64,000 bases of DNA from Marinobacter qingdaonensis (GTDB lineage: Bacteria > Pseudomonadota > Gammaproteobacteria > Pseudomonadales > Oleiphilaceae). Location: positions 558,001-622,000 of the forward strand of contig NZ_JAYDCJ010000001.1 of NCBI RefSeq assembly GCF_034555935.1, given 5' to 3'. Positions 28,610 through 51,485 of the stretch are shown one piece after another (position 1 is the first letter of the stretch; each line of letters begins with the position of its first letter). The notes beneath the pieces are model-generated. The model was not told where the DNA came from. It made no database searches and saw only the letters and a program-made list of their open reading frames with translations. Both the position numbers and the translations under genes were made by a program.

Positions 28610-28624
28610 TTCGCATTCTGCTAA
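28610..28624. promoter_or_regulatory. LuxO/SypG-type enhancer box 1
   Basis: TTCGCA-TTC-TGCTAA: half-sites TTYGCA and TGCRAA with a three-base spacer, one mismatch. The centre is 70 bases upstream of the -24 element of the lipoprotein-LruC promoter. Confidence 0.6.
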
Positions 28625-28640
28625 TCACCCTTCCCAGAGT

Positions 28641-28666
28641 AAAAAAAGCCCAACCGGGGTTGGGCC
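28641..28666 (-). terminator. Rho-independent terminator of the REC-GGDEF-EAL gene
   Basis: On the minus strand GGCCCAACC pairs with GGTTGGGC around a short loop, followed by seven T. It lies 23 bases beyond the stop codon. Confidence 0.88.
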
Positions 28667-28689
28667 AAAGGCGTTGGATACAAACGGGA

Positions 28690-30810
28690 TCAGGCGGCAA
28701 CGCTTTTCGACGCAGGGCCCTCATAAAATTGATCGAAAGCGGCTTTATCCACGGGGCGACCGGTCAAGAATCCCTGAACCGAATCGCAGCCAAGAAGCTT
28801 CAGGCAATCCAACTGCTCGGGCGTTTCTACACCTTCGGCAATCACATGCAGGCCAACTTCGTGTCCGACGGTAATAATGGCTTTGGCAATCGCCAGTGCC
28901 GTATTGTCGTGGGTAATGTTTTGAACAAAACTCCGGTCGATTTTCAGGCAATCGACAGGCAAGTTTTTCAAGTAACTGAGCGATGAGTAGCCAGTGCCAA
29001 AGTCATCCACCGATACCCTGACTCCCGTCGCCCGAAGTGCCTCCAGGTTGAACACAGCACGGCTGCCAGCATCCACCATCACAGCCTCTGTCACTTCCAG
29101 TTCCACCAGCGACTGGTCGATCTCACGCTCGGCAATGGCGTCATGCAACTCTCGGGTAAATTCACCGGTGTTCAGGTGGCTACCAGAAATATTGATCGAT
29201 ACCGGCACACTCGGGCGCCCCTGGTTACGCCAGTCGACCATCTGATCCAGCACCTCCTGAATCACAAACTGACTCAATGGAACGATCAGACCGCAACGCT
29301 CGGCGGCCGGAATGAAGACTGCCGGTGATACCGGCCCCAGCTCCTTGCAATTCCAGCGAATCAGCGCTTCCATACCAACCAGCGTCATGCTGGTGAGTGA
29401 AAACTTGGGCTGATAGTGCATCTCCAGCCGGCCGCGGAGCACATCACGACGCAGCAGCCGTTCGATTTCGTAATCTCGCTGGATGTCCAGCCTGACATCC
29501 TCGTTGTAGACACTGACTGGCACTCCGGCCGCCTCATTCATATTGGCAGCACAGGCGGTCGCGGCGATAAACCCATCGGCAACGGGCACTGACTTCATCG
29601 TGTCGGTCACGCCCGCCTTCCAGGTCAGAGAAAAGGTATAGCCATTCACCTCGTAGGGTCGATTCAGCGCGGCATAAACACAGGATGCCATCTCGGCGCT
29701 CACGTTCTCATCCGTGATGCCAAAGAGCGCAATCATGAATTCCGAGTCGCCAATCCGAGCAAGGGCAGGCCGTTTTCCGCGATCCTGAAGAGGCCCCTGG
29801 TTGGCTACCACGTCCCGCATCCGATTGGCGATCAGAGCCGCCAGGTCATTCAGTCCAGCACGGCCGATTCGAGACTCATAGCTCGAAAAATTACTGGCGA
29901 TAAAGCGCAGCAAACCAGTGTGTCCGACGTTCTCAACATCGTGCTCGAACTGAGCATTCAGCTCCCGGGTAATGAAATTGAGGTTTCCAAGCTGTGTACA
30001 GGCATCCCGATAAACCAACTCGTACATTTTCTTGTCAGCCAGCCAGCTTTCGGTCAAATCGTTGAACAAACAGAAACGCTCGCCATCGACACCGAGAACA
30101 AACCTGCCCTGAATCAGCATGTCGTGCTGCTGCGTAGACCGGATGAAGAACGGCTCACCGCCGGCCATGGTCTCCGATGCCTTCCAGCCTTCCTGCGCTT
30201 CCAGCTTCGCCGAGCCCGACAACACATCGAACAACGACAGCCCCGGGAGCAACACAGAGGAAAAGGCCTGATCGATTCGCTCCAGATGATGCCGATCAAT
30301 GATGATGCCATTCGGATCCAGCGTCAGGGCTGCCTCCGATGATGACTTCAGCATACGGGTGACCTGATCAGCGCGGGCTTTTTCCCGGTTTTCGCTTTCC
30401 CGAGCGCGAATCAGTGACTTCAGGCGTTGAATGGTAATTCGCCAGTTCAACGGCTTGGGTGCAAAATCGGTAGCGCCACACTCGAAGGCGTGTTCAATCG
30501 AGTCATCGTCATCCTGGCCCGTGGCGAGAATGATTGGCACGGGGTCATCTTTCAAAAACTTGCGCATGGCTTTACAGGTATCAAAGCCATTGAGACCGGG
30601 CATACGCGCATCGAGCAACACAGCGTCAAAAACCCGGGTTTGTAGCCACCGAATAGCGCTGCTGCCATCTGATACTTCGGTGACCACAAACCCCGCTTTT
30701 TCCAGCGCTGCTCGAGCGACGATGCGAACGGCAATGTCGTCATCCACAACAAGAAGATGATGGGCGGATGATGAGTAAACGGGTGTTTCGGTCTCAGTGT
30801 TGCTTTTCAT
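28690..30810 (-). CDS. Response regulator with degenerate GGDEF and intact EAL domain
   Basis: A 706-aa cytoplasmic protein. REC domain (about 18-135) with phospho-acceptor Asp67. A PAS-like linker (150-265) precedes a GGDEF domain (about 270-440) whose active-site motif reads RIGDSEF, one Gly lost. The EAL domain (about 455-695) keeps the phosphodiesterase residues: EALIRW, ELEVTEA, DDFGTGYSS, LKIDRSF, AEGVETPEQ and QGFLTG. It should break down c-di-GMP, perhaps with GTP-binding control by the altered GGDEF. A sigma-54 promoter and enhancer box precede it, placing it in the polysaccharide regulon. Confidence 0.92.
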   Translation of the reverse strand: MKSNTETETPVYSSSAHHLLVVDDDIAVRIVARAALEKAGFVVTEVSDGSSAIRWLQTRVFDAVLLDARMPGLNGFDTCKAMRKFLKDDPVPIILATGQDDDDSIEHAFECGATDFAPKPLNWRITIQRLKSLIRARESENREKARADQVTRMLKSSSEAALTLDPNGIIIDRHHLERIDQAFSSVLLPGLSLFDVLSGSAKLEAQEGWKASETMAGGEPFFIRSTQQHDMLIQGRFVLGVDGERFCLFNDLTESWLADKKMYELVYRDACTQLGNLNFITRELNAQFEHDVENVGHTGLLRFIASNFSSYESRIGRAGLNDLAALIANRMRDVVANQGPLQDRGKRPALARIGDSEFMIALFGITDENVSAEMASCVYAALNRPYEVNGYTFSLTWKAGVTDTMKSVPVADGFIAATACAANMNEAAGVPVSVYNEDVRLDIQRDYEIERLLRRDVLRGRLEMHYQPKFSLTSMTLVGMEALIRWNCKELGPVSPAVFIPAAERCGLIVPLSQFVIQEVLDQMVDWRNQGRPSVPVSINISGSHLNTGEFTRELHDAIAEREIDQSLVELEVTEAVMVDAGSRAVFNLEALRATGVRVSVDDFGTGYSSLSYLKNLPVDCLKIDRSFVQNITHDNTALAIAKAIITVGHEVGLHVIAEGVETPEQLDCLKLLGCDSVQGFLTGRPVDKAAFDQFYEGPASKSVAA

Positions 30811-30872: not shown

Positions 30873-30889
30873 TGCATCAGGCATGCCAG
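30873..30889 (-). promoter_or_regulatory. Sigma-54 promoter of the REC-GGDEF-EAL gene
   Basis: On the minus strand: CTGGCAT-G-CCTG-ATGC-A. Correct -24/-12 spacing, 63 bases upstream of ATG 30810. The box centred at 30956 is 67 bases further upstream. Confidence 0.7.
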
Positions 30890-30948: not shown

Positions 30949-30963
30949 TTCGCAAATTGCATC
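30949..30963. promoter_or_regulatory. LuxO/SypG-type enhancer box 2
   Basis: TTCGCA-AAT-TGCATC. The first half-site is exact; the second matches at TGCA. It is followed by a further GCAATG that may form an overlapping half-site. Confidence 0.55.
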
Positions 30964-31074: not shown

Positions 31075-32517
31075 CTAAACCGCCTCCCACTGCTGTTTCT
31101 TGCGATAAATCGTGGAAGCGCTGATCTCGAGGAACGCGGCTGCCCTGGGTACATTGCCACCACAACGGTCTATCGCCCGTTCAATGATTTCTTTCTCCTC
31201 AACCCACAACGGCCGAATGTCGCCATTAGCCTCTGGCGGTTGCGGCGCCACTGCGCCATTGAGCGGCTGGCGGTCGATTTGACTCGGGGTCCTCTCCATT
31301 GCGTAGGCATGGCTTGATTTCGCGACGGCTCGACCGCCCGAACGGACGGAATCAGGCAACATATCCGGCCGAACCAGCTCGCCATCGTTCAGCACAACGA
31401 TATTCCGAATGACATTGCCAAGTTCCCGGACATTCCCCGGCCAGCTGTAATCCAGCAGGATGCGTTTTACCTCTTCGCTGAAACCGCGAAAGCGCTTGTT
31501 CTCTTCAACCGTGCACTGCTTGAGCATCCGCTCACCGATCAGCAGGCTGTCATTGCCGCGCTGACGGAGCGGTGGCATCTCCAGAGGAATAACGTGAAGC
31601 CGGTAATACAGGTCTTCCCGGAACCGCCCGGCTCTGACCTCTTCCAATGGATCGCGGTTGGTGGCACAGATGAAGCGAACGTCCACCTTGACCTCCCGAT
31701 TGGCACCGACCGGCTGAAACGTTCCCGACTGGATGAAGCGCAGCAGCTTGCTCTGCAGATCCATGGGCATTTCGCCAATCTCATCCAAAAACAGCGTGCC
31801 GCCAGAGGCCCGGGCTGCTGCACCTTCACGGCTGCCGGTCGCGCCGGTAAACGCACCCTTCACATGGCCAAAGATTTCGCTTTCCAGCAGATCCTTGGGG
31901 ATGGCCGCACAGTTCAGGGCGATGAAGGGTTTGTCCCGACGCAGGCTTTCGGCGTGCAGCGCCGATGCACAGAGTTCCTTGCCGGTTCCGCTCTCACCAG
32001 TGATAAACACGGTGGCATTGCTCTTCGATGCGCTTTCGATGATGCGATACACATTCTGCATAGGCAGCGATGCCCCGACCATCTCGTGAAAGGCATCGCG
32101 CTGGAACGATTTCTCGTACTCCGTGACAATCTCTTTCAGCTGTTCCTTTTTGAGAATATTTTCCAGCGTGACCAGAAGACGAGCTTTTTCAAAAGGCTTG
32201 GACAGGAAATCGCTGGCGCCTCGCTGCATGGAGTCGACGACCACATCAACCGAACCATGGGCGGTCATAACCACCACCGGCAACGGATCTTCCGTTCTCT
32301 GGATTTCGTCGAGAATGTCCAGGCCTGTCATATCCGGCAGGCGGACGTCTGTCAGTACCAGGTCGAACCGTTGTGACGCCAGTTTTTCAAGCGCTTCAGA
32401 ACCTGTCCCAGCTGTCACCACCGAATAATCGGCCTCCAGATAGCTGCGGTAGACCAGCGCATTGGAGGCACTGTCTTCCACCAGGAGAACACGAGGACTG
32501 GATTGATAATCAGGCAT
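31075..32517 (-). CDS. LuxO/SypG-type sigma-54-dependent response regulator
   Basis: A 480-aa NtrC-family activator. REC domain (about 8-122) with Asp57. The AAA+ domain (about 145-385) has Walker A GESGTGKE, the sigma-54-contacting GAFTGA motif, Walker B GGTLFLDEIGE and an arginine-finger region. A Fis-type HTH is at the C-terminus (NVPRAAAFLEISASTIYRKKQ). It closes the operon with the PhnD-like protein and hybrid kinase, 15 bases after the kinase. Boxes of the LuxO/SypG type with sigma-54 promoters surround the locus, so it is the probable activator of those promoters, including that of its own operon. Confidence 0.93.
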   Translation of the reverse strand: MPDYQSSPRVLLVEDSASNALVYRSYLEADYSVVTAGTGSEALEKLASQRFDLVLTDVRLPDMTGLDILDEIQRTEDPLPVVVMTAHGSVDVVVDSMQRGASDFLSKPFEKARLLVTLENILKKEQLKEIVTEYEKSFQRDAFHEMVGASLPMQNVYRIIESASKSNATVFITGESGTGKELCASALHAESLRRDKPFIALNCAAIPKDLLESEIFGHVKGAFTGATGSREGAAARASGGTLFLDEIGEMPMDLQSKLLRFIQSGTFQPVGANREVKVDVRFICATNRDPLEEVRAGRFREDLYYRLHVIPLEMPPLRQRGNDSLLIGERMLKQCTVEENKRFRGFSEEVKRILLDYSWPGNVRELGNVIRNIVVLNDGELVRPDMLPDSVRSGGRAVAKSSHAYAMERTPSQIDRQPLNGAVAPQPPEANGDIRPLWVEEKEIIERAIDRCGGNVPRAAAFLEISASTIYRKKQQWEAV

Positions 32518-32531: not shown

Positions 32532-35500
32532 TTATTCAGAGGCGATTTTTTCTTCCAATGCAGTCATTTTCTGACTGTAGGCCTTTTCGGTTTCCTCGGC
32601 TACAGTGGCCAGTGTAGCTACCAGTCCCGCCAGCAAGTCCGTCTGATGCTCTGCCGCCGCATATTCCAGCGATTTCGCCACTGCCGATAGCCGGGCCCCA
32701 CCGTAGGTACCGGAGCAACTTTTGAGCGCGTGCGCCTGCTCTCTCAGCTCGCCAATGTCCCCTTCGGCAAAGGCGGCTTCGACGGCTGACCAACGGTTTT
32801 TTATCTCGCGGATAAATATAGACAACATCATGGGAATGGTCTCCCAGGAAGTGTCGGTCGCAAGCTGAGCAAGCGCTGGCTCGTTCAGCACTTCCTCATT
32901 TTCGAACGCCGCTGTACTTGTCATTGTTGTGTCCTCGTTGTTCTGTCTGCGTTGAGCAACCGCTGAGATCAATGTAGTCACCTGAAACGGTTTACTGACA
33001 AAGTCATCCATGCCGGCTTCCCTACACCGATCAATTTCGGATGTTTCAGCGTTTGCGGTCAGTGCGATGATCTTGGTTCTAGCGTTTGGCCCATGCCCCT
33101 TGCGGATGATCTCGGTGGCTTGCAGGCCATTCATCTTCGGCATTCGCACATCCATCAAAATCGCATGGTATGGCTGCTTGCCTGCCATCGCGACCGCCTG
33201 TTCGCCATCCTCAGCATGGTCCAGGCGGTAACCGTGACGCTGCAGAACCGCGGCCGCCACCAGCCGATTGGCTTCAACGTCATCCACCAGCAGGAGACGA
33301 TGTTCTGCTTCATCGGGTGACAACGGCTGTTCCGGAGGTGCCGCTGCCATGTGCAAGCCCTCGTCGCTGCGCGCACCCAGTGTCGACGACTGGCTGGCCG
33401 GTTCGAAAATGGCAGCAATCAGGTTTTCGGCAAACAGGGTACCGCCGCCGAGCGACTCCACATTCCGCTCATCACTCGCTTCGCCCAACTTCAAGATGCG
33501 CCAGTCACCCACTTCCGGCACCGGCAACTCAGCGAGGCTTGGAGTATCGACCAACAGGATGCGTTCGTCGGCAACCGAGGACTGACTCAGCCATGACATC
33601 TGATGGTTGACGCCGTCAGTGTTCGCCACGACGTTTAGGCCTGTGTGCTCTGCCCACTCGGCGAGGGCGAAGGCAAGGCCCCGGTCAGAAACCACCATGG
33701 CAACATCAACGGCCCTCTGGGCAGGCGCCGCCAATTCGTTCTTTTGCTTCCCCTCGGGCTGTGCGGCTTTCACCGTGAAGGAAAAGCACGAACCCTCTCT
33801 CTCAGTGCTCACCACTGACACGCTACCACCCATCAACTGAACCAGTTGCCGGGCAATGGTCAGGCCCAGTCCAGTGCCACCATATCCGGTGTCTCTTGCA
33901 GCATCTACCTGCTCGAACTCACCGAAAACGGCATCGATCATGCTTTCCGGGATACCCGGGCCGGTGTCATGAACGTCAACCTGCCACATTGTCTCCCCAT
34001 CCACCTCAATCTGGCGCGGCGCAACGGTAATCGATCCGCTCTGGGTAAACTTGAACGCGTTGTCGACCAGAATGGTCAATACCTGGCGAACCCGGTCGGG
34101 GTCGGCACACACCCTCAGCGGCGAGAAGGCATCCGCCAGAAACGCCAGCGTCAGATCGGGCTTGCTCGGGCGAGTCATGATGGCGGCAAAGACCTCACGC
34201 ACGATCGGTCCCAGGCTAAAGATCTCTTCGCGCACTTCGATCTGCCCGGCCTCGATGCGAGAAAAATCCAGTACATCATTAATCACGTGCAACAAGGCAT
34301 TGCCCGATCCACGGGCGATACCGATCATCTTTTGCATGTCAGGCGACAGGTCCTGCCCCTGGCCGAGAACCTCAAGCGCCCCCAGAACCGCATTCAGCGG
34401 CGAACGGATTTCATGGGACATGTGAGACAGAAAACGCGATTTGGCCAGCGACGCTTCCTCGGCAGTCGACTTGGCCTCAATCAACGCCGCTTCACTGGCT
34501 TTGCGCTCGGTGATATCTCGCAGAGTCGCGGTGACGACAACATCGTTTTCAAGGTAGGTGGCCATCAATGCCAACTCAATCGGGAACTGATGCCCTCTGC
34601 GATGCAAAGCTACAGCTTCGATACGCTTGCCAATCAGCGGGCCCTCTCCAGTCTCAAGGAATTTCTGCATTCCCGCAGCATGGGCTGACCGGTATTGTTC
34701 CGGAATCAACATCGTGGCCATATCCCGGCCCATGGCCTCTTCTCGGGTCCAGCCCAGCATTTCAACGGCCGACTTGCTGTACTCAATGATCCGCCCCTCG
34801 GAGTCGATACTGAGTAGTGCGTCCAGGCTGGAGTCAACGATGGAAGATCTGAGCTCCTGGGCTTGCTGGGTCTGACGCTGAAGAAGCTGCATCTCTTTAC
34901 GCTGGTCATCCAGTCTCTGATTTTTTTCTTCCAGGCTGGCAATCGTGTCTTTCAGGCGTTGTTCACGCTCGCCAAGCGCGTGACTCATTTGATCAAACGC
35001 CTGCATCGTCTGGCCGAGTTCATCCCCTTTGCCGGCCGACGAAAGCCTGAGCCACTGTCCCTTCTGGGCGGCCTCGGCTGCTTTTCTGAGCTGAGTGATT
35101 CGCCGGGTCAACAGCGTCGCCAACAGCCACGAACACAGCGCGACCAGCACCAATTCAAGCCCCGCAATGACCAGAAAGCGTTGCCGGGCCTCGGCGACCA
35201 GGGCGTTCAATGAATCGACCGAGATGCCGAGTTCAATTTGCCCGAAAGAATATCCGCTCTCCACAATGCCGGTTCTGGTGTCATACACCCCATCATCGAC
35301 CGACTGAAAATCCGAGTCGGCGGAAAACGTGCTCTCCGGCAGATTCCCGGCCGCAGCCAGATAACCGCTGTCGTCGGTGATCTGCACATAGACCACCTCC
35401 TCAAGCTGCACCACCTGACCGGCCACCTCCTCCAGTGTTGCCAGGTCCATGCTGATCACGGCATCTTTCACCACCGACTCGATCAAATTCACCGTGTCGC

Positions 35501-35633
35501 CGGCTCGTTTCGACAAGGCCTGCTGATTGGAAACGGTCAGGTAGTTCACTGCCTGCCAGATCAGAATCGCCAGAAAAAACGTTTCCAGCAGGGCGATGCC
35601 TACGATGGTTTTCCATTTAATCGACACAACCAT
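32532..35633 (-). CDS. Hybrid histidine kinase with receiver and HPt domains (SypF/LuxQ-like layout)
   Basis: About 1033 aa. TM1 (about 12-32), a periplasmic sensor (about 33-152), TM2 (153-176), HAMP (177-230), a coiled coil, and PAS (about 265-380). The kinase core follows with His407 in SHMSHEIRSP and an HATPase with DTGPGIP and GTGLGL. A diverged receiver-like region comes next, then a typical REC with Asp828 (ILMDVRMP), and an HPt domain with His968 (QAHALKSCSG). The H-D-H chain would pass phosphate to the sigma-54 regulator encoded next. ATG 35633 is used, though GAGGAG is only two bases away; GTG 35627 is an alternative at better spacing. The PhnD-like gene precedes it by 30 bases. Confidence 0.92.
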   Translation of the reverse strand: MVVSIKWKTIVGIALLETFFLAILIWQAVNYLTVSNQQALSKRAGDTVNLIESVVKDAVISMDLATLEEVAGQVVQLEEVVYVQITDDSGYLAAAGNLPESTFSADSDFQSVDDGVYDTRTGIVESGYSFGQIELGISVDSLNALVAEARQRFLVIAGLELVLVALCSWLLATLLTRRITQLRKAAEAAQKGQWLRLSSAGKGDELGQTMQAFDQMSHALGEREQRLKDTIASLEEKNQRLDDQRKEMQLLQRQTQQAQELRSSIVDSSLDALLSIDSEGRIIEYSKSAVEMLGWTREEAMGRDMATMLIPEQYRSAHAAGMQKFLETGEGPLIGKRIEAVALHRRGHQFPIELALMATYLENDVVVTATLRDITERKASEAALIEAKSTAEEASLAKSRFLSHMSHEIRSPLNAVLGALEVLGQGQDLSPDMQKMIGIARGSGNALLHVINDVLDFSRIEAGQIEVREEIFSLGPIVREVFAAIMTRPSKPDLTLAFLADAFSPLRVCADPDRVRQVLTILVDNAFKFTQSGSITVAPRQIEVDGETMWQVDVHDTGPGIPESMIDAVFGEFEQVDAARDTGYGGTGLGLTIARQLVQLMGGSVSVVSTEREGSCFSFTVKAAQPEGKQKNELAAPAQRAVDVAMVVSDRGLAFALAEWAEHTGLNVVANTDGVNHQMSWLSQSSVADERILLVDTPSLAELPVPEVGDWRILKLGEASDERNVESLGGGTLFAENLIAAIFEPASQSSTLGARSDEGLHMAAAPPEQPLSPDEAEHRLLLVDDVEANRLVAAAVLQRHGYRLDHAEDGEQAVAMAGKQPYHAILMDVRMPKMNGLQATEIIRKGHGPNARTKIIALTANAETSEIDRCREAGMDDFVSKPFQVTTLISAVAQRRQNNEDTTMTSTAAFENEEVLNEPALAQLATDTSWETIPMMLSIFIREIKNRWSAVEAAFAEGDIGELREQAHALKSCSGTYGGARLSAVAKSLEYAAAEHQTDLLAGLVATLATVAEETEKAYSQKMTALEEKIASE

Positions 35634-35663
35634 CACTCCTCAAAACGGATAACAGCCATTGGC

Positions 35664-36518
35664 CTATTGTGCCGAGATGTTGAGCCGACGTACGTCGTCC
35701 CAGTCAGCATTGGCAGCCGCTTCAAAGCCCTTCATGCGCAAAGGCTCCAGTATTTGCAACCCCGCCTCACTGTCCTCCAGGCCTGTGAGAGCGCCAAGCA
35801 GGGTGCGACGCGTTTCTTCATTGACGCGTGGGTGCACGGCAATCGCGTGAGGGGTATATCCTGGCGATCGCCACAACACCCTCAGTTCTTCCCGCACACC
35901 AGCCTCAAGGGCGTTCAGGGTGCGCTGGATGCCCCCCCCGGCCACAAAACGACCGGAGGCAACGCTGCGATAAACCGAATCGTGGGAAGAAACAAAATGG
36001 GCCGTATAGCCCGCAGCCTCTGTTTCGAGATGGGAGCGTGTTACCAAGGTTGCCGCGAACGCTCGTGGTGCTGGGAATGCGAGCGCTTGTCCGGCCAGAT
36101 CCGAGAGCGAAGTGATTCCGCTCTCTCGCCGCACGACGATGATCCCCCTGATTCGATGGTCCCGAGCCCGAGCCAGTGCCTGATACCCAGGATTTTCGTT
36201 GAACAGGGTGAAGTGGTAAGGGTTCATGTATGCAATATCGTATTCGCCCCGGGCCAATCGCTCTTCGAACGTCGGAATGTCTGGCGCCGTGGCAAAGTCA
36301 ACGGTCAATCCTGAGCGGTCACTGATGTTTTTGAGCATGGGTACCCAGGCGCGGGCCAGCTTGGAGGCCGCCTGCTGCGGCACGACACCAAAGGTGAGCG
36401 TATTTGTCCCGTTGCTTTCTGCGGTTCCCTGAGCACTGACGACGTGCGGCGCCAGTAGAAACAGCACCAGGATTCCCATCAAGGTTTTTTGCCTTGGCAT
36501 GGCCTGAAGCCTGCGCAT
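35664..36518 (-). CDS. PhnD-like periplasmic binding protein, probable co-sensor
   Basis: A 284-aa precursor with a signal peptide (about 1-29, LMGILVLFLLAPHVVSA) and a PhnD/phosphonate-binding-type domain: LTFGVVPQQAASKLARAWVPML, EYDIAYMNPYHFT, a DLAGQALAFPAPRAFAAT motif. AGGAG lies seven bases before ATG 36518. There is no ABC permease or ATPase nearby. It is the first gene of the operon with the hybrid kinase and sigma-54 regulator. By analogy with LuxP-LuxQ and other binding-protein/kinase pairs, it probably presents a ligand to the kinase; the ligand is unknown. Confidence 0.8.
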   Translation of the reverse strand: MRRLQAMPRQKTLMGILVLFLLAPHVVSAQGTAESNGTNTLTFGVVPQQAASKLARAWVPMLKNISDRSGLTVDFATAPDIPTFEERLARGEYDIAYMNPYHFTLFNENPGYQALARARDHRIRGIIVVRRESGITSLSDLAGQALAFPAPRAFAATLVTRSHLETEAAGYTAHFVSSHDSVYRSVASGRFVAGGGIQRTLNALEAGVREELRVLWRSPGYTPHAIAVHPRVNEETRRTLLGALTGLEDSEAGLQILEPLRMKGFEAAANADWDDVRRLNISAQ

Positions 36519-36570: not shown

Positions 36571-36587
36571 AGCAATTGCCGCGCCAT
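36571..36587 (-). promoter_or_regulatory. Sigma-54 promoter of the PhnD-kinase-regulator operon
   Basis: On the minus strand: ATGGCGC-G-GCAA-TTGC-T. The -12 TTGC is exact and the spacing correct. It lies 53 bases from ATG 36518 and about 90 bases from the centre of the shared box at 36670-36684. Confidence 0.65.
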
Positions 36588-36669: not shown

Positions 36670-36684
36670 AATGCATTTTGCAAA
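36670..36684. promoter_or_regulatory. LuxO/SypG-type enhancer box 3, shared by divergent operons
   Basis: AATGCA-TTT-TGCAAA, overlapped by another TTTGCA at 36665-36670. It sits between the minus-strand regulator operon and the plus-strand PP2C operon, each with its own sigma-54 promoter. Confidence 0.7.
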
Positions 36685-36735: not shown

Positions 36736-36752
36736 TTGGCACTGCTTTTGCT
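36736..36752 (+). promoter_or_regulatory. Sigma-54 promoter of the REC-PP2C operon
   Basis: TTGGCAC-T-GCTT-TTGC-T: near-perfect -24/-12 element, 45 bases before ATG 36797 and 59 bases from the box centre. Confidence 0.85.
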
Positions 36753-38080: not shown

Positions 38081-38085
38081 CGCTG

Positions 38086-38502
38086 ATGGCATCCGTGATT
38101 GTTAGGTTTCAAGCCAAAGAGGCCAATATCGAGAAGGCTATCGAGCAGTTGGAGCTTTACCTGGAAACGCTGGACGTGTCGCCAGAGCACCAGTTTCAGA
38201 TCCAGACCTGCTGCCGGGAAGCGCTCAACAATATCGTCGAACACGGAACCCAGGGGCAGCAAGAGTCGCCTTTGATGTTCTCACTCTCCCTATGGCTCGA
38301 AAAACACCCCAACCGGCGCAGGGCCCGGGTTCAGATCACCGATAACGGCGCAGCGTATGAGCCTCCAACTGCGTCGCCCAAGCCGGACGAACTCTCGCTG
38401 TCAGGCCGAGGCTGGTCAATCCTGCAGCAGTGGTCAGACGAACTCAGCCTGACCCGGAAACAGGGTTTGAATTATCTGACAATAACCAAGCGCCTTGACT
38501 AA
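38086..38502 (+). CDS. RsbW-like anti-sigma/serine kinase (HATPase_c)
   Basis: A 138-aa GHKL-fold protein. N box CREALNNIVEHG (Glu45, Asn49), G1-type ITDNGAAYEPP, and G2-type LSGRGWSILQQWSDEL. It is short and lacks a dimerisation His domain, as in RsbW/SpoIIAB and the kinase half of SypE. ATG 38086 follows the phosphatase stop at once; an in-frame upstream start at 38035 would overlap it. It would phosphorylate the STAS protein at its conserved Ser. Confidence 0.88.
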   Translation: MASVIVRFQAKEANIEKAIEQLELYLETLDVSPEHQFQIQTCCREALNNIVEHGTQGQQESPLMFSLSLWLEKHPNRRRARVQITDNGAAYEPPTASPKPDELSLSGRGWSILQQWSDELSLTRKQGLNYLTITKRLD

Positions 38503-38554: not shown

Positions 38555-38569
38555 TTTGCATTTTGCAAA
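38555..38569. promoter_or_regulatory. LuxO/SypG-type enhancer box 4 (perfect palindrome half-sites)
   Basis: TTTGCA-TTT-TGCAAA, the best copy: both half-sites are exact inverted repeats and it matches the published LuxO pattern TTGCA-W3-TGCAA. The centre is 80 bases upstream of the -24 of the STAS promoter. Confidence 0.8.
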
Positions 38570-38641: not shown

Positions 38642-38658
38642 TTGGCACACCAATTGAT
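38642..38658 (+). promoter_or_regulatory. Sigma-54 promoter of the STAS-wza-wzc operon
   Basis: TTGGCAC-A-CCAA-TTGA-T: exact -24, -12 with A for C. About 50 bases before ATG 38709. It probably drives the tightly overlapping chain up to 45338. Confidence 0.8.
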
Positions 38659-44298: not shown

Positions 44299-45338
44299 AG
44301 AAGGTACCAACCATGCCGTCCATCAGCGTAGTGATGCCCGTTTACAACGTCGCAGAGTTTGTTGCCGTTGCGATTCGTTCCGTCCTCGATCAAACCATGG
44401 CCGATTTCGAGATGATCATCGTGGATGACTGCTCTCCAGATAACAGCATCGAGATCTGCGAGTCGTTCCAGGATCCACGTATACGCATTGTTCGTCATCA
44501 GCAGAACCGGGGCCTGGCCGGCGCCCGCAACACCGGTATTCACGCTGCCCGAGCGCCGCTGATTGCGTTCCTCGATTCCGACGATTTCTGGCACCCGGAG
44601 AAGCTGGATAAGCATCTCCAGCACCTGAACCAACGTGCCTCTGTTGGCATTTCGTTCAGCCGCTCAGCCTTTGTGGACCGCTGGGGCATGCCGCTGCGCT
44701 GCTATCAGATGCCTTTGCTCAGTGGCATCACGCCAGACCACCTGTTCTGTCGTAACCCCGTTGGTAATGGCTCTGCCCCCGTGGTGCGCCGTGAGGTTTT
44801 TGACGCCATTGGTTACCAGGCCGAGTTCCGAGGAGAGCCGGAAATCCGTTATTTTGACTCGGAACTTCGACGGTCTGAGGACATCGAGTGCTGGCTAAGG
44901 ATCTCACTGCAAACCAACTGGAGCATTGAAGGCATTCCCGAACCGCTCACGTTCTATCGTCTGAATGAGGGTGGCCTGTCATCGAACCTCCACAAACAGC
45001 TCGAGTCCTGGGAAGAGGTCGTGGAGAAAACCCGCCGGTATTCACCCCAGTTTGTCGAGCGGCATTACCGGACGGCCCGCGCCTATCAGTTGCGTTATCT
45101 CTCCCGCCAGGCAATCCGTCTCGGGGACGGCGAAACCGCGATGCGTTTTTTGCAACGAGCCTTCGCAGCCGACAAACGCATGCTCACCCAGGAACCGGCG
45201 AGGACCCTCTGCACGGCCGGCGCCGCTTTTTTATTGAAGCTGTTGCCGCGTGGTTATCGACTGGTCGAATGGCAGGCTCTGCAGATTATTGGTCTCCTGC
45301 AAAAACGCCGCATCCAGCGGGACATTAAAACCGTTTGA
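44295..45338 (+). CDS. Family 2 glycosyltransferase
   Basis: A 347-aa GT-A protein: ISVVMPVYNVAEFVAVAIRSVL, the nucleotide-binding IIVDDCSPDNS, and the DxD motif in LIAFLDSDDFWHPEKL. A C-terminal helical tail (about 255-347) may be a membrane-association region. It is the last gene of the chain begun at the STAS promoter; an intergenic region with box 5 and a new sigma-54 promoter follows. Confidence 0.9.
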   Translation: MKKVPTMPSISVVMPVYNVAEFVAVAIRSVLDQTMADFEMIIVDDCSPDNSIEICESFQDPRIRIVRHQQNRGLAGARNTGIHAARAPLIAFLDSDDFWHPEKLDKHLQHLNQRASVGISFSRSAFVDRWGMPLRCYQMPLLSGITPDHLFCRNPVGNGSAPVVRREVFDAIGYQAEFRGEPEIRYFDSELRRSEDIECWLRISLQTNWSIEGIPEPLTFYRLNEGGLSSNLHKQLESWEEVVEKTRRYSPQFVERHYRTARAYQLRYLSRQAIRLGDGETAMRFLQRAFAADKRMLTQEPARTLCTAGAAFLLKLLPRGYRLVEWQALQIIGLLQKRRIQRDIKTV

Positions 45339-45355
45339 TGTGCGGGGCAGAGTGA

Positions 45356-45370
45356 TTCGCATTTTGCGAC
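45356..45370. promoter_or_regulatory. LuxO/SypG-type enhancer box 5
   Basis: TTCGCA-TTT-TGCGAC, one mismatch from an inverted repeat. The centre is 93 bases upstream of the -24 element at 45456. Confidence 0.72.
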
Positions 45371-45455
45371 GCACTCTGCTCAGGAGTCTGCCGATTCCAC
45401 GTTGTTACCGGATGACCTGCGCCCTGAAGCCGCATGTCCAGGGCGCTTTCTGCAC

Positions 45456-45472
45456 TTGGCACGAAGATTGGA
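45456..45472 (+). promoter_or_regulatory. Sigma-54 promoter of the WecG/WbaP-fusion operon
   Basis: TTGGCAC-G-AAGA-TTGG-A: the -24 is exact with the conserved G; the -12 has G for C. It lies 41 bases before ATG 45513. Confidence 0.78.
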
Positions 45473-45512: not shown

Positions 45513-47033
45513 ATGCACCAGACGATTCCAAACACCATCGAGCCGGCCGGGGCACTGATATTCAGCGGCACGACGCCCCAACGACAAACACCGACACCGA
45601 TGGACAAAGTGTTGGGAATTCACTTCGCCAACGTTAGCTTCCCTGAGGCCATGAGCCTTCTTGGCGCAACACTGAAAAGCAGTGACTCCAGCAACCTGTT
45701 TTTCATTAACGCCCACTGCCTGAACGTCTCGTTTGAAGACCCTGTTTATCGCGACGTTCTGAAACAGACGCCGCTGATTTTCCCGGATGGCTCCGGCATC
45801 CGTCGTGGTTGTCAACTGCAGGGCATCCCCCTGCAAGCCAACCTGAACGGGACCGACCTGTTTCCCGAGCTTTGTCGACTGCTGGCCGAGGAACAAAAAT
45901 CGCTGTATCTGCTTGGCGCAACACCTGGCACCGTAGAAAAAGTCGCTGCCTGGGCCACCCGCGAGTTTCCGGGGCTCAGAATTGCCGGAACGCAGCACGG
46001 CTACTTTGCCAAAGACGATGAGGCCGCCGTCATTGACGCCATCAATACCAGTGGTGCCGATGTCCTCTGTGTTGCCATGGGGGTGCCACTGCAGGAAAAA
46101 TGGCTGCATCGTCATAGCGGTGGCCTGAATACCCGGCTAAACCTCGCGGTCGGCGGGCTGTTCGACTTTTACGCCGGCAACGTTTCCCGCGCCCCCCTGT
46201 ATTTCCGCCAGAAGGGCATTGAATGGGTCTGGCGCCTGATTCAGGAGCCGGGTCGGATGTGGCGCCGTTATCTTCTTGGCAATCCGATCTACGCAATGCG
46301 GCTGCGCTACGAGGCGAAAACCCGGGCACTGATCAGTGCCTTCCCCGAACGCCTCAACAACCGTTTTCAGAGGGCGCGGTTGTCTGCGCGGGCCGCCCTG
46401 CGACGACTGGCCCATCGCTGGTCTACCTCACTGGGCAGCGCCTCCAAGCGTTCCAGCGACATTGTGCTTTCAGTGGCCGCTCTGACGGCTCTGCTCCCGG
46501 TGTTTCTCATCGTCGCGATCGCCATCAAACTGGATTCACCCGGTCCGATTTTCTATCGGCAACAACGTGCTGGTCTCCGCGGTCGAGCCTTTTCGATGTG
46601 GAAATTACGCTCCATGTGCGTGAACGCTGAACATCTGCGCGAGCAGTTGGAGGCCCAGAACGAGATTGCCGATGGCGTTACCTTCAAGATCCGCAACGAT
46701 CCGCGGGTCACACGCGTGGGGCGTTTTATCCGCAAATACTCGATCGATGAACTGCCACAGCTGTTCAACGTCCTGCGAGGTGACATGTCCATTGTGGGGC
46801 CAAGACCGGGTCTGTTCAGCGAACTGACCAAATACGAGCTGTCGCAGCGTCAGCGCCTGGACATCAAGCCCGGCCTCACCAGTGAATGGGTGGTCGCCGG
46901 TCGTAACAATCTTTCCTTTGCCGAGCAGGCTGAACTGGACATCCAGTACCGCAACCAGCGAACCCTGTGGCGGGATTTTGTCCTGATGCTTAAAACCGTG
47001 CCTGCGCTCATTCGCGGCAGCGGTGCCAGCTGA
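45513..47033 (+). CDS. Fusion of WecG/TagA glycosyltransferase with WbaP-type sugar transferase
   Basis: A 506-aa protein made of two enzymes. Residues about 33-250 are a WecG/TagA/CpsF glycosyltransferase (FINAHCLNVSFEDP, FPDGSGIRRG, LYLLGATPGTVEKVA, VAMGVPLQEKWL). From about 310 to the end is a polyprenyl-phosphate sugar-phosphotransferase: one TM helix (about 315-340), SPGPIFYRQQRAG, FSMWKLRSMCVNAE, RFIRKYSIDELPQLFNVLRGDMSIVGPRPG. The second half starts a repeat unit on undecaprenyl phosphate; the first may add the second sugar. In most loci these are separate genes. ATG 45513 is used; ATG 45600 would still keep both domains. Confidence 0.9.
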   Translation: MHQTIPNTIEPAGALIFSGTTPQRQTPTPMDKVLGIHFANVSFPEAMSLLGATLKSSDSSNLFFINAHCLNVSFEDPVYRDVLKQTPLIFPDGSGIRRGCQLQGIPLQANLNGTDLFPELCRLLAEEQKSLYLLGATPGTVEKVAAWATREFPGLRIAGTQHGYFAKDDEAAVIDAINTSGADVLCVAMGVPLQEKWLHRHSGGLNTRLNLAVGGLFDFYAGNVSRAPLYFRQKGIEWVWRLIQEPGRMWRRYLLGNPIYAMRLRYEAKTRALISAFPERLNNRFQRARLSARAALRRLAHRWSTSLGSASKRSSDIVLSVAALTALLPVFLIVAIAIKLDSPGPIFYRQQRAGLRGRAFSMWKLRSMCVNAEHLREQLEAQNEIADGVTFKIRNDPRVTRVGRFIRKYSIDELPQLFNVLRGDMSIVGPRPGLFSELTKYELSQRQRLDIKPGLTSEWVVAGRNNLSFAEQAELDIQYRNQRTLWRDFVLMLKTVPALIRGSGAS

Positions 47034-47049
47034 CTTTCCGGAGATGCTT

Positions 47050-48417
47050 ATGAAATCTGCCATCGTTTTTGCTGATCGCGACGGTCGCGAGCTGGAACCG
47101 CTCAATGACCGCTACTGCCCCGCCATGCTGCCTGTTCTGGGCAAACCGCTGCTTGAGCATGCTCTTGAGCACTGTCTAGGCCTAGGTGTCGAAACCGTCT
47201 TTGTAGTCATCAATGCCCATGCCGCTTCGGTACGCGCTTACTTCGAGTCTGGTGCCCGCTGGAGCCTGAACATTCACTATGTTCTCAGTCGTCAGGATGA
47301 GCCCTCCAATCGGGTACGACAGCGGATCGGGCGCTCGCTGAAAGGCCCCTTTGTCGCAATGCGCGGCGATATCTGGCATGGCCTGACCCCGGATTTTCCC
47401 TGTAACGACGTAGGCCTGCCGGCACCCCACAGCCGGCTTGGCTATATCGCCGGCCAGTCCAGCGACGAGAGGTTGGAAGCGTTGGGCTGGCAGTCCATTT
47501 GCAGCACCCACATTCCAGCTTCACAACCACAGGCGGTGCATCGGCCGTGCACGGTGCGCTCCCTGGCCGACTATCATTCGCTTTCCCTGGCAACCCTGGA
47601 AGCGGTTTTCGCAGACGCAGAGCGAGAGCAAGGCGCACCGGCCTCCCGGTTGATGCTTGGTGCCCAAACCCGGGTCAACCACGTCAGTCTGGATGAGGGT
47701 ACGGCCTATATCGCAGAACACAGCCGGGTAGATATTGGTGCCCAGCTAACGGGCGCTGTGTCAGTGGGGCGGCATTGCCTGATCGACCGGGGTACTCATA
47801 TTGCCAATTCGGTTCTGATGGACCATACCTACGTGGGCGCCGGTCTGACCGTCAGGAATGCCATTGTCGATCAGGACCGCATCATTCGGGTGGATCTGGA
47901 TGCCACCATGACCATTGCCGACTCGTTTCTGCTCTGGCCAAACAAACTACCTGTCGAAGGTAGCTGGATGAGCAGGATACTGGAGCGACTGATGGCACTG
48001 CTTCTAATCCCACTGGGCGCACTGATCGATGGCCTTTACTGGTCCAGCAAACGCGGTAAGCCCAGCAATAATTACCGGGACCGCCTTCCACTGAGCGTGC
48101 AACTCTGGGCCGCTGCAAAAGGCCGGATAGCGCTTTTCGGCCGCGACGAGCACACTGGCCAACTCCTGCAGAAATCGTCAGAAACGCTGCCCTGGCGGGA
48201 ACGCTACGAGACACTGCCACTCGGAGCCATCAGTCTGGCCAGGATGCAATTGCCAGATCGCGCTGAGCTTGCCCTGATCATGCTGACCGAACTGGAATTG
48301 AGTCGTCCAAGGACCATTGGCTATCTATACCTGAACCTGGTCAGATGCTGCTGGTCAGGGTTAATGGCGTTGAGTCCATTGTCCGCTTTTACGTCCCGCT
48401 CCACGAACATCGCCTGA
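47050..48417 (+). CDS. Degenerate nucleotidyltransferase-like protein with membrane helix
   Basis: A 455-aa protein. The N-terminal part (about 1-190) resembles sugar nucleotidyltransferases (CPAMLPVLGKPLLEHALEHCLGLGVETVFVVIN), but the usual Gly-rich G-x-G-T-R nucleotide loop is replaced by ADRDGRELEPL, so catalysis is doubtful. A left-handed beta-helix (about 225-310) follows, then a hydrophobic segment (LMALLLIPLGALIDGLYW, about 325-345) and a cytoplasmic tail with PLGAISLARMQLPDRAELALIM. GGAG precedes ATG 47050. It lies between the sugar-transferase fusion and the second kinase. A scaffold or regulatory role is possible; no close family is recognised. Confidence 0.6.
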   Translation: MKSAIVFADRDGRELEPLNDRYCPAMLPVLGKPLLEHALEHCLGLGVETVFVVINAHAASVRAYFESGARWSLNIHYVLSRQDEPSNRVRQRIGRSLKGPFVAMRGDIWHGLTPDFPCNDVGLPAPHSRLGYIAGQSSDERLEALGWQSICSTHIPASQPQAVHRPCTVRSLADYHSLSLATLEAVFADAEREQGAPASRLMLGAQTRVNHVSLDEGTAYIAEHSRVDIGAQLTGAVSVGRHCLIDRGTHIANSVLMDHTYVGAGLTVRNAIVDQDRIIRVDLDATMTIADSFLLWPNKLPVEGSWMSRILERLMALLLIPLGALIDGLYWSSKRGKPSNNYRDRLPLSVQLWAAAKGRIALFGRDEHTGQLLQKSSETLPWRERYETLPLGAISLARMQLPDRAELALIMLTELELSRPRTIGYLYLNLVRCCWSGLMALSPLSAFTSRSTNIA

Positions 48418-48426
48418 GGAATTGAG

Positions 48427-51400
48427 ATGAACACGCCCGACCTGCCCATCAACGAGGTATCCAGACTGGAGGCGCTCCACAAACTCCGCATTCTGGACAC
48501 CGATCCGGAGGAGCGGTTCGACCGCATCACGCGACTGGCTCAGCGCCTGTTCGACGTTCCGATCGTCGCTATCAGCCTGGTTGATAAAGACCGGCAGTGG
48601 TTCAAGTCCAGGATCGGACTAGAGGCGAGGGAAACTGAGCGCTGCGTATCCTTCTGCGGGCATACCCTGCTCAGCGAAAAACCGCTGGTCGTACCGGACG
48701 CCCACACCGACGAGCGTTTTGCAGATAACCCTCTAGTCACAGGCGAGCCGTATATCCGGTTCTACGCTGGTCACCCGATCCATGCAGCGGATGGGCAGCG
48801 CATCGGCTCCTTGTGCATCATTGACACCCAACCCCGCGAACTGACCCAGGGACAGATCGTGACGCTTGCCGAGCTTGCCAACCTGGTCGATTACGAGTTG
48901 ATCAAGCCGGCTGCAGAGGCAAATGAAGATGGACACGGCAATCACGCCTTTACGCACTTTCTGGAGAGGGTCGGAAAGGTTGTTTCCTCACGACAGAAAG
49001 CTTTCCTGATTGCCTCCGTGGTGTTTCTGCTAGTGTGCGCGTTTGGTTGGAGCTGGAAAGGCGCCACGCGGGATGCCATCGCTGCCGTTGATGAGGCCAG
49101 CGTCGTAGAGCGATTGTCCAACCTGCGCGGTCGTCTGGAGACCGAGCTGAACGCGAGACTCCACCTGACCAGAGGTCTGGCCGGATTTGTCCGGGCTGAT
49201 CAGAACAATGTGGACCCGGATCGATTCCAGGCCTTCGCCGACGATCTCGGTCACGAAATGACAGCGGTACGAAGCTTACAGCTCGCACCTGATGGCGTGG
49301 TGCAATACGTGTGGCCAGTGAGCAAAAACCAGAAAGCCATCGGCCACGATCTGTTAGGCGATCCCAATCGTCGTATCGCCGCGCAGAAAGCGATCGACAG
49401 TCAGCGTATGTGGCTCTCCGGCCCGCTAGAACTGATCCAAGGCGGCACGGCTCTCATTGCTCGTGAGCCGATCTTTGTTCCTGTTGACGGTGAGCGCGAG
49501 GAGCAGTTCTGGGGCTTCGCCACCATCCTGGTAGACATGCCGGAACTGCTCGCAGCGGTGGAGCTGGACACGGAAGAGGCGCGCAGTCGTTTTGCCATTC
49601 GCAGTGTTCATGAGTCCGACAACAAGGTGTTCTACGGCAACCCTGAAGCCTTCGAGATCGCCGATAACATCGCCTCGGTTGCTCTTCCCGGCGGACAGTG
49701 GGAAATCGCCCTCACTCACGACTCTGAGGGGAAATCGTTCCCGGCGCTTCTCATCATGTTGCTGATACTGATATCCGCTCTCGGTGCGGCAGTCTTCATT
49801 TACGTTTTGCTTCGACTGCCAAGCCAGTATCAGAGGGCGGTTGCGTCTGCTAGAACGGCATTGGAAAAAGCCAACTCGCTGTTCCGCGAGGCTATCGAAT
49901 CACTTCCCGATGGCTTCGCGGTGTTTGACCGTGAGGACAGATTGCTGACCTGCAACCAGCGTTTTCGGGATTTCTTTGAAACCTCTCAGTTGGCCAGTCT
50001 CAGCGGCATCAAGTTCGAAACGCTGCTGCGTATGACCGTCAACATGGGCATTGTCGAACTGGAAGACAATTCCGAAGCCGGCAAGGCGGAATTTATTCGC
50101 CAGCGACTCGAGCAGCACCGAAATCCGGGCAGCGGCGGCAGTGAGACCAAGTTGACCTCCGGGCGTTGGGTACGGTCCGTGGAAAGCAAAATTCCCAGCG
50201 GCGGCTCTGTGGTGTCATACACCGACATCACCGAACTGAAAACCAAGGAACAGGAAATACAACTTGCCAGGGAAAAGGCAGAAACCGCGAACACAACCAA
50301 GAGCGCCTTCTTAGCCACCGTCAGCCATGAGTTGCGCACTCCAATGAATGCCATTCTGGGGGTCATGAACCTTGTCCAGTCCAATAGCGATCTCTCCGAC
50401 GAGAATAAACACCTGATGGAGACGGCCCAAAATTCGGCTGAACGTTTACTGCAACTGCTCAATGAATTGCTCGACATCTCCAAGATGGAGGCGGGCAAGC
50501 TGGAACTGGAGATGTCCCGATTCTCACTGGAAACCGTGATCCATCGCGTGGTGACCCTGGCTAAAACCCGGGCCGAAGAAAAACACCTGGTGCTGGATTA
50601 CTGTATTGCGAAAGAGGCCAGTCTGTTTGTCGAGGGCGACCCGGGACGAATCCAGCAGATTCTTCTCAACCTGCTCGGCAATGCCATCAAGTTCACCAAT
50701 GCTGGTCGGGTGGCTCTCAACGTTTCACTGGACGATCGCGACGCCAATACCGCCAGAATCCGTTTTATCGTGACCGATACCGGTGAAGGGTTCCCCGAAG
50801 AACAGGCAGGCCGACTGTTCAAACCCTTCTCCCAGCTTGATTCTTCGGCCTCTCGGAAGTACGAGGGCACCGGTCTTGGTCTTGCTATCTGTCATCGCTT
50901 GGTCACCTTGATGGGAGGCGACATCAGCGCTTCTTCGGTACCGGGGGAAGGCGCGACGTTTGAATTTGTCATACCCATGGCCATCAAACAGGACGAAGAC
51001 GAGACACAGGCGACCCAAACGCCCCCGCGCTACCAACTGCCCAGCGATTGCGGCAAAGAGGCCGTCCGCGTCCTTCTGGCCGAGGACTCACCGGCCAACC
51101 AGGTGGTTTTCAAGGCCATGCTGCAAAAAACCGGCTATCAGGTGGACATCGTGGGCAATGGTAAAGAGGCCGTTGAAGCGACTGAAAAATTCCCCTACGA
51201 CGTTATTCTAATGGACATCTTCATGCCGGAACTGGACGGTATCGAGGCTACCAAGGAGATACGTGCCAATGGGCGCCAGGAAAACATCCCCATCATCGCG
51301 CTGACGGCAAACGCCATGCAAGGCGACAAGGAGCGATTCCTGGCAGCAGGCATGGACGATTACCTGCCAAAGCCGGTTAACCGGGCGGATCTGCTCAAGA

Positions 51401-51441
51401 AGCTTGAACGCTGGACTCTGGCCGACCTCCCCGGCAAGTGA
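48427..51441 (+). CDS. Second hybrid histidine kinase (GAF-CHASE-like-PAS-HK-REC)
   Basis: 1004 aa. An N-terminal GAF domain (about 20-165), TM1 (about 195-212), a periplasmic CHASE-like domain (about 225-430), TM2 (440-462) and a PAS-like segment (about 480-610). The kinase core has His634 (SHELRTPMN) and an HATPase with DTGEGFP and GTGLGLAI; the C-terminal REC has Asp930 (ILMDIFMPELDG). There is no HPt domain or cognate output gene beside it, so it may feed the HPt of the first kinase. A cytoplasmic GAF before the first TM is an uncommon order. It starts nine bases after the preceding gene. Confidence 0.9.
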   Translation: MNTPDLPINEVSRLEALHKLRILDTDPEERFDRITRLAQRLFDVPIVAISLVDKDRQWFKSRIGLEARETERCVSFCGHTLLSEKPLVVPDAHTDERFADNPLVTGEPYIRFYAGHPIHAADGQRIGSLCIIDTQPRELTQGQIVTLAELANLVDYELIKPAAEANEDGHGNHAFTHFLERVGKVVSSRQKAFLIASVVFLLVCAFGWSWKGATRDAIAAVDEASVVERLSNLRGRLETELNARLHLTRGLAGFVRADQNNVDPDRFQAFADDLGHEMTAVRSLQLAPDGVVQYVWPVSKNQKAIGHDLLGDPNRRIAAQKAIDSQRMWLSGPLELIQGGTALIAREPIFVPVDGEREEQFWGFATILVDMPELLAAVELDTEEARSRFAIRSVHESDNKVFYGNPEAFEIADNIASVALPGGQWEIALTHDSEGKSFPALLIMLLILISALGAAVFIYVLLRLPSQYQRAVASARTALEKANSLFREAIESLPDGFAVFDREDRLLTCNQRFRDFFETSQLASLSGIKFETLLRMTVNMGIVELEDNSEAGKAEFIRQRLEQHRNPGSGGSETKLTSGRWVRSVESKIPSGGSVVSYTDITELKTKEQEIQLAREKAETANTTKSAFLATVSHELRTPMNAILGVMNLVQSNSDLSDENKHLMETAQNSAERLLQLLNELLDISKMEAGKLELEMSRFSLETVIHRVVTLAKTRAEEKHLVLDYCIAKEASLFVEGDPGRIQQILLNLLGNAIKFTNAGRVALNVSLDDRDANTARIRFIVTDTGEGFPEEQAGRLFKPFSQLDSSASRKYEGTGLGLAICHRLVTLMGGDISASSVPGEGATFEFVIPMAIKQDEDETQATQTPPRYQLPSDCGKEAVRVLLAEDSPANQVVFKAMLQKTGYQVDIVGNGKEAVEATEKFPYDVILMDIFMPELDGIEATKEIRANGRQENIPIIALTANAMQGDKERFLAAGMDDYLPKPVNRADLLKKLERWTLADLPGK

Positions 51442-51470
51442 TTACTCGCCAGTCTGCTCCGGCAACTCGC

Positions 51471-51485
51471 GTTGCAAAATGCAAT
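51471..51485. promoter_or_regulatory. LuxO/SypG-type enhancer box 6 inside a longer inverted repeat
   Basis: GTTGCA-AAA-TGCAAT. It forms the centre of a longer near-perfect inverted repeat (51461-51495), arms GGCAACTCGCGTTGC and GCAATGCGAGTTGCC with one mismatch around AAAAT. No T-run follows, so a terminator is less likely, though the hairpin could stabilise the upstream mRNA end. Confidence 0.68.

Follow-up and report, generated by a model that had tools for sequence, protein, structure and literature searches.

A 64,000-nucleotide stretch of the Marinobacter qingdaonensis genome (contig NZ_JAYDCJ010000001.1, positions 558,001 to 622,000; hereafter 'the window', in whose coordinates positions are given) contains a locus of polysaccharide and signal transduction genes with six copies of the inverted repeat TTYGCA-W3-TGCRAA in front of its operons. 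These six boxes are genuine and non-random. We suggest that they very probably constitute upstream activating sequences (UASs), i.e., enhancers, of the LuxO/SypG-family response regulator encoded within the locus, which would thereby co-activate six transcription units. The original prediction of such boxes is right in substance, and stronger than the evidence first stated for it.

Six boxes and their putative sigma-54 promoters

All six sequences are found where they had been predicted, at 28610, 30949, 36670, 38555, 45356 and 51471. When scored reading from each box toward the nearest operon, with a sigma-54 consensus taken from general knowledge, each box is followed by a -24/-12 element in the correct orientation, at a distance of 52-113 bp and with 8-10 of 11 consensus matches:

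28610..28624, minus strand: box 1, TTAGCAGAATGCGAA on the minus strand; putative UAS of the lipoprotein/LruC operon
28531..28546, minus strand: sigma-54 element of box 1, TGGCCCGAACGCTGCA, 9 of 11, 63 bp from the box
30949..30963, minus strand: box 2, GATGCAATTTGCGAA on the minus strand; putative UAS of the phosphodiesterase gene
30873..30888, minus strand: sigma-54 element of box 2, TGGCATGCCTGATGCA, 9 of 11, 60 bp from the box
36670..36684, plus strand: box 3, AATGCATTTTGCAAA; putative UAS of the REC-SpoIIE gene
36737..36752, plus strand: sigma-54 element of box 3, TGGCACTGCTTTTGCT, 10 of 11, 52 bp from the box
36571..36586, minus strand: possible divergent sigma-54 element of box 3, TGGCGCGGCAATTGCT, 9 of 11, 83 bp from the box; weak in most relatives
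38555..38569, plus strand: box 4, TTTGCATTTTGCAAA; perfect palindrome with the exact LuxO 13-mer inside
38643..38658, plus strand: sigma-54 element of box 4, TGGCACACCAATTGAT, 9 of 11, 73 bp from the box
45356..45370, plus strand: box 5, TTCGCATTTTGCGAC
45457..45472, plus strand: sigma-54 element of box 5, TGGCACGAAGATTGGA, 10 of 11, 86 bp from the box
51471..51485, plus strand: box 6, GTTGCAAAATGCAAT; exact LuxO 13-mer inside
51599..51614, plus strand: sigma-54 element of box 6, TGGCACGGTTTCTGAG, 8 of 11, 113 bp from the box

The claim that every box lies upstream of an operon thus holds, all six elements being directed into one; in five operons, with the listed starts, 26-62 nt separate the end of the element from the start codon. 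The accompanying claim that all boxes are intergenic is true after two gene starts are corrected, and not with the starts as listed: the start at 28530 of the lipoprotein gene overlaps the -12 element, while 28488 is preceded by GGAGG and yields a predicted lipoprotein, and the binding-protein gene starts near 36518 rather than at 36683. The copy at 38555 had correctly been described as a palindrome and is the only exact match to the strict 15-mer TTYGCANNNTGCRAA, from which 28610 and 45356 deviate at one position and 30949, 36670 and 51471 at two. Box 3 is possibly common to the divergent binding-protein operon; the divergent minus-strand element has 9 of 11 matches here and in the related locus L106, 8 in L012, and 4-7 in five other relatives. 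The regulator may possibly act on its own gene through box 3 and this minus-strand element.

The boxes stand out in tests that are independent of the window. A weight matrix trained on 27 sites in relatives, none of them from the window, ranks the six boxes first to sixth in the 64 kb (scores 26.3 to 16.6); the seventh-ranked site, 55635 (score 15.8), falls within a gene and lacks a promoter. Since the training sites had been found via the consensus of the original prediction, a consensus-free count of all trinucleotide dyads was made on 52 upstream regions of locus-gene orthologues, picked by orthology alone, boxed or not. Among 26,772 dyads GCA-N3-TGC came first, occurring in 25 of the 52 regions against 6.0 expected (log10 p -10.2), and the second-ranked word was the -24 word TGGCAC. 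This count replaces an earlier one on 18 regions, which was discarded as biased because those regions had been selected for having boxes.

Boxes are accordingly seen conserved in the orthologous promoters of relatives. GCAWWWTGC is present upstream of all orthologues of the EAL (5/5), SpoIIE (4/4) and phosphoglycosyltransferase (PGT; 3/3) genes, of 2/3 Wza, 4/6 CHASE-kinase, 1/3 STAS and 1/13 regulator genes, and of none of nine orthologues of the genes for the protein encoded at 40309, Wzy, GT4 and Wzx. Its absence upstream of six binding-protein genes (0/6) is an artefact of the overlong listed start.

A further test rests on the LuxO UAS of Vibrio qrr promoters, TTGCAWWWTGCAA as given in an excerpt of PMC10162802, and hence on a 13-mer that was taken from the literature and not derived from the window. 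Two exact copies exist in the 3.985 Mb genome, both within boxes of this locus (38555 and 51471), and none of the control; the half-site, TTYGCA, is likewise of the LuxO type, so that the pattern had rightly been equated with the published LuxO site. Nor is the motif equally dense across the genome, the outcome which the original prediction had named as speaking against it: the 23 kb spanned by the boxes hold both exact 13-mers, 3 of the 11 genome-wide strict one-mismatch matches, and 6 of the 26 places found with a W3 spacer and up to two mismatches (reversed control: 16). These six places are the boxes, and a seventh is 55635 in its gene. The composite pattern GCAWWWTGC-N55-85-TGGCAY has seven places in the genome, three of them in this locus, and none for the control.

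The regulator and its co-occurrence with the box

31075..32517, minus strand: LuxO/SypG-family sigma-54 response regulator, REC - AAA+ with GAFTGA - Fis-type helix-turn-helix (HTH); proposed binder of the boxes

With these three parts the protein has the features of a bacterial enhancer-binding protein of the NtrC family. Its nomination as the candidate binder gains support from its uniqueness in the genome, its HTH residues and its co-occurrence with the box in the genus. No other close LuxO/SypG-type activator was found in the genome, and the 13 further members of the class found there share at most 48% identity with it over the aligned part; ten of the 13 align short of the HTH, as does the best-scoring one (42% identical over residues 7-388). 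Eleven LuxO residues at which a change to alanine abolished DNA binding are named in an excerpt of PMC11407668, and a comparison by eye with the regulator's HTH gives eight identical residues, two conservative exchanges and one Lys as in SypG.

Among the NCBIfam models listed, LuxO (NF041946) fits the regulator best, with 627.7 bits and thus below the cut-off of 800; its best PDB match is LuxO as well (5ep0, E 1.4e-140). Its identity is 55% to the LuxO of A. fischeri (Qrr adjacent) and 49% to the SypG of that species, the copy in the syp locus. In the four genomes with copies of both clades, the LuxO copy, identified through a neighbouring Qrr in A. fischeri and by tree position in the other three, scores higher in A. 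fischeri, Grimontia and Aliivibrio EL58, and the SypG-type copy in V. splendidus (524.5 vs 494.9 bits). With LuxO ahead in three of the four, a classification as simply SypG was rejected. A quick tree (98 rows) places the regulator with LuxO (SH-aLRT 88, a likelihood-ratio branch support) and a careful one (58 rows) apart from both LuxO and SypG; neither joins it with Vibrio SypG, and the approximately unbiased test rejects neither grouping (p 0.102 with SypG, 0.085 with LuxO, 0.132 with LuxO plus Pseudoalteromonas). Judged by its sequence, the regulator is best classified as a LuxO/SypG-family member of its own lineage, fitting neither LuxO nor SypG cleanly.

A search for Qrr RNA at E 0.01 found none in its own genome or in 11 other carriers of the regulator in the genus, with 139 of 156-268 first-look candidates scored in three of those carriers, and was positive for A. 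fischeri; at gathering scores, Rfam matched only two tRNAs in the window. Action of the regulator through Qrr is therefore unlikely, bearing in mind that a diverged RNA could be missed.

The genus sample comprised 124 genomes, its own included, with 12 candidates scored per genome; 12 genomes carry the regulator at E < 1e-120. The exact 15-mer with W3 spacer, TTYGCAWWWTGCRAA, is found in 7/12 carriers vs 7/112 non-carriers (Fisher p 2.7e-5), and its reversed control in 1/12 and 11/112; 11 of the carriers' 13 sites are within 14 kb of the regulator gene. For the published 13-mer the figures are 8/12 vs 19/112 (p 5e-4; reversed control 1/12 and 10/112), and 13 of the carriers' 15 copies are within 20 kb of the regulator gene. 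The sequences thus show the boxes, the promoter-like elements, their geometry, their conservation and the co-occurrence with the regulator. Of 80 loci examined, 42 contain a box together with an element of 9 of 11, a count for which no chance level was computed; among the 26 alphaproteobacterial loci there are only 4 such cases. The idea that the box is older than the whole family was for this reason dropped as unsupported. One regulator copy of a relative (L105/L117, G109:C85:7372-8799) has a single in-frame TAG with the boxes around it present; copies elsewhere are intact.

Nested hairpins and competing explanations

Two of the boxes, 45356 and 51471, each sit at the tip of a hairpin of 33 nt (RNA fold z -4.9 and -5.4):

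45347..45379, plus strand: hairpin around box 5, 13 of 15 pairs, loop 3; begins 9 nt after the GT2 stop codon
51462..51494, plus strand: hairpin around box 6, 14 of 15 pairs, loop 3; begins 20 nt after the kinase stop codon

At the GT2/PGT junction of two relatives (L171, 1168-1200; L172, 1090-1122) the arms differ and the pairing is kept. In the resulting small set of four hairpin sequences, one of them from another junction, 96.7% of the cells pair and six pairs are changed on both sides; the covariation score of the arms was reached by none of 500 shuffles, and slid registers fail. One may hence ask if boxes 5 and 6 are primarily RNA hairpins, serving as 3' terminators or mRNA stabilisers of the upstream operons, with their box likeness a by-product. 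The stability of the hairpins, their start shortly after a stop codon and the covariation of their arms speak for such a role. However, the GCA-W3-TGC tip stays constant while the arms vary, no terminator-like match (hairpin plus T-run) overlaps either hairpin, and both boxes precede sigma-54 elements. Moreover, the box kept before the PGT gene of Amphritea, with a 10 of 11 element, lacks a long hairpin (3 of 12 flank pairs), and boxes 1-4, with 6, 1, 7 and 5 of 12 flank pairs, have no hairpin of 13 of 15. We consider a primarily RNA-level role of these two boxes unlikely. It is also very improbable that another, unrelated palindrome-binding factor occupies the boxes and that the likeness to LuxO is coincidental. 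The exact 13-mers of the 19 non-carrier genomes (20 places), which lack the regulator at the cut-off used, would be accounted for by such a factor, but the clustering of the carriers' copies around the regulator gene would not; all six boxes precede sigma-54 elements, which require an activator of this class, and the 13 other activators of the genome are as distant as described above.

Several observations weigh against the boxes being enhancers of the regulator. At up to two mismatches TTYGCANNNTGCRAA has 11 matches in the window, not significantly more than the 8.4 expected, and at one mismatch 11 genome-wide against 9 for the control; bare consensus counting, being at chance level, was dropped as a test, and the case therefore rests on the other evidence. 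Elements with at least 8 of 11 matches are frequent (127 in the window, compared with 23 having at least 9 and 4 having at least 10), so that the promoter of 51471 is weak evidence when taken alone. Of 14 other sites with a score of at least 11 that were examined in the genome, three are likewise accompanied by an 8 of 11 element and the remaining ones by at most 7; these three sit in stop-to-stop frames of 334-487 residues, and 36670 itself overlaps a frame of 411. Four of the 12 carriers (G059, G068, G134, G135) have no exact 13-mer, and a fifth, G034, has its only one on a different contig from the regulator. Around three regulator copies (L109, L111, L112) no box scoring at least 14 with a promoter of at least 8 was found in the stretches fetched. 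At the position two residues ahead of the recognition helix's Ser-Thr, the regulators of these three loci carry Gly and the others compared Ser, a difference that may or may not be connected with the lack of boxed promoters. Finally, when 369 genomes of the class were searched for the PGT protein, a single homologue apart from that of M. qingdaonensis came up (G436, L188), and it is without such a box.

The consensus counts are also what one would obtain if the boxes were chance palindromes picked by eye. Given their conservation in orthologous promoters, the out-of-sample ranking, the result for the a-priori 13-mer and the co-occurrence with the regulator, the probability of this is next to negligible, and a set of enhancers bound by the regulator of the locus is the explanation that we prefer.

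The locus, its relatives and related systems

The boxes are distributed over the following genes and operons:

26543..28027, minus strand: LruC-domain (DUF4842) protein, second gene of the box 1 operon; Pfam E 4.3e-26; TIGR04456 158.6 bits, cut-off 36
28024..28488, minus strand: predicted small lipoprotein, LLLAGCGG lipobox read by eye; start moved from 28530
28690..30810, minus strand: REC-GGDEF-EAL protein; EAL, DDFGTG and KID motifs
32532..35636, minus strand: hybrid histidine kinase, HAMP-PAS-HisKA-HATPase-REC-Hpt
35664..36518, minus strand: PhnD-like periplasmic binding protein with signal-peptide-like start; start corrected; adjoins the hybrid kinase
36797..38080, plus strand: REC-SpoIIE phosphatase, SypE-like without the kinase part
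38035..38502, plus strand: RsbW/SpoIIAB-like HATPase_c_2 open reading frame, the SypE kinase part as a separate gene; start uncertain
38685..45338, plus strand: operon after box 4, with STAS (SypA-like), Poly_export/Wza, 480-residue protein, Wzy_C, GT4, GT2
45513..51441, plus strand: operon after box 5, with WecG-Bac_transf fusion (PGT), nucleotidyltransferase/hexapeptide protein, GAF-CHASE-PAS hybrid kinase
51649..53013, plus strand: polysaccharide flippase (Wzx-type), after box 6

With SypA, SypE, SypF and SypG types plus export and glycosyltransferase genes, the locus has what characterises a syp/scv locus; a match to OmpA (SypB) was not found among the locus genes scanned. The SypE-type protein is split over 36797-38502 into the REC-SpoIIE phosphatase and the separate RsbW-like kinase frame. 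In the REC-GGDEF-EAL protein a GGDEF motif was looked for and not found; the protein is likely a phosphodiesterase of cyclic di-GMP (c-di-GMP), and its motif pattern suggests built-in removal of this messenger. The binding protein scores below the PhnD equivalog cut-off and its neighbours are not permease genes, which makes it plausible as the sensor partner of the kinase, much as LuxP serves as sensor partner for LuxQ. The 480-residue protein between Wza and Wzy (40309-41751) is 49-56% identical in three relatives (L106, L107, L012) and matches no Pfam or PHROG family. The longer form of the lipoprotein has no Pfam or NCBIfam match, and PHROGs gave none for it, as for four unnamed proteins in all. 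A tRNA gene at 26252-26335, at the edge of the locus, is a possible integration site; the regulator itself is carried by 12 of the 124 genomes sampled.

From knowledge of NtrC-family activators we infer how binding, phosphorylation, ring formation, looping and activation would follow upon a signal. The hybrid kinase, with its own REC and Hpt and possibly reading the periplasmic binding protein, would phosphorylate the regulator, which would bind TTYGCA-W3-TGCRAA as a dimer and assemble into an AAA+ ring; looping would then bring it to RNA polymerase-sigma-54 at the -24/-12 promoter 52-113 bp downstream and open that promoter. One signal would thus jointly fire six transcription units: the SypE-like phosphatase/kinase, the operon from SypA to the glycosyltransferases, the phosphoglycosyltransferase/second-kinase operon, the flippase, the c-di-GMP phosphodiesterase, and the lipoprotein plus LruC-domain protein.

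In sister species the same box appears to be connected to other outputs. Three relatives (L108, L110, L117) have no Wza, Wzy or glycosyltransferase orthologues in the stretches fetched; the same box and promoter precede a gene for a protein of 126-145 residues that is pilin-like by eye (no Pfam match for that of L108). In L110 a further box stands before a gene with an OmpA domain, and the adjoining L183 continues with genes for secretin, T2SSE and T2SSF; together these are like a Tad set, with the machinery seen in one genome. The EAL gene is boxed in polysaccharide-type and pilin-type relatives alike, and the CHASE kinase, here part of the boxed PGT operon, has a box of its own in all three.

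With the LuxO system the locus has the 13-mer in common, and a box with a sigma-54 element is also present at the divergent qrr of A. fischeri (L030). It differs in that the regulator stays below the NCBIfam cut-off, no Qrr was found, the boxed targets are polysaccharide operons, and the neighbouring kinase itself carries Hpt. As with SypG, the regulator lies inside a syp-like polysaccharide locus beside a hybrid-kinase homologue, and in the syp control locus of A. fischeri boxes stand 48-88 bp before sigma-54 elements, the same geometry as here. The claimed resemblance to the V. fischeri syp enhancer of SypG, given as TTCTCANNNTGMDWN in an excerpt of PMC10162802, does not extend to the half-site, which is TTYGCA and not TTCTCA; by eye, the latter occurs in none of the six boxes on either strand, whereas the A. 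fischeri syp sites start with TTCTCA and end with TGAGAA, TGATAA or TGCAAA. At the start of the second HTH helix, LuxO and the window regulator have Pro and four SypG-clade proteins Leu, and we hypothesize that this difference underlies half-site specificity. Beside the A. fischeri syp locus lies an LruC-domain homologue (L169:2231; 30% identity, E 4e-26), matching the boxed LruC operon here.

According to an excerpt of PMC8941931, scv/syp loci occur in 28 genera and likewise comprise STAS, SypE-type phosphatase/kinase, Wza, Wzy, glycosyltransferases, a flippase and a sigma-54 regulator. Compared with the loci as described in that excerpt, the present one divides the SypE functions between two genes, has a PhnD-like binding protein adjoining the kinase, includes LruC and EAL operons among the boxed units, and has no OmpA (SypB) gene between STAS and Wza. 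Among the titles listed by searches of open-licence PMC text, none dealt with this locus or with hairpin-nested enhancers. What is new here is the probable direct control of surface-polymer genes by a LuxO/SypG-family sigma-54 regulator, a variant of known systems.

It is tempting to combine these findings, if only tentatively and with considerable doubt, into a Qrr-free LuxO/SypG-family member that would control surface programmes directly through the LuxO DNA word, with a fixed core and a swappable output. The core would then consist of the c-di-GMP phosphodiesterase and the sensor kinases, and the output of polysaccharide here and Tad-like pili in sister species; the LuxO word would be the older one within the gammaproteobacteria, with Qrr RNAs and the TTCTCA half-site of SypG arising later on the Vibrio side, and a junction stretch would double as the DNA enhancer of the next operon and the RNA 3' element of the previous one.

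The boxes and their elements amount to a map of predicted promoters, open to testing, for a biofilm locus of a non-Vibrio bacterium. They suggest that the LuxO recognition word is common to a wider set of activators having surface polymers as direct targets, which bears on the sharing of a promoter by SypG and LuxO in V. fischeri, and the Pro or Leu of the HTH beside TTYGCA or TTCTCA half-sites may offer a handle on the specificity of this family.

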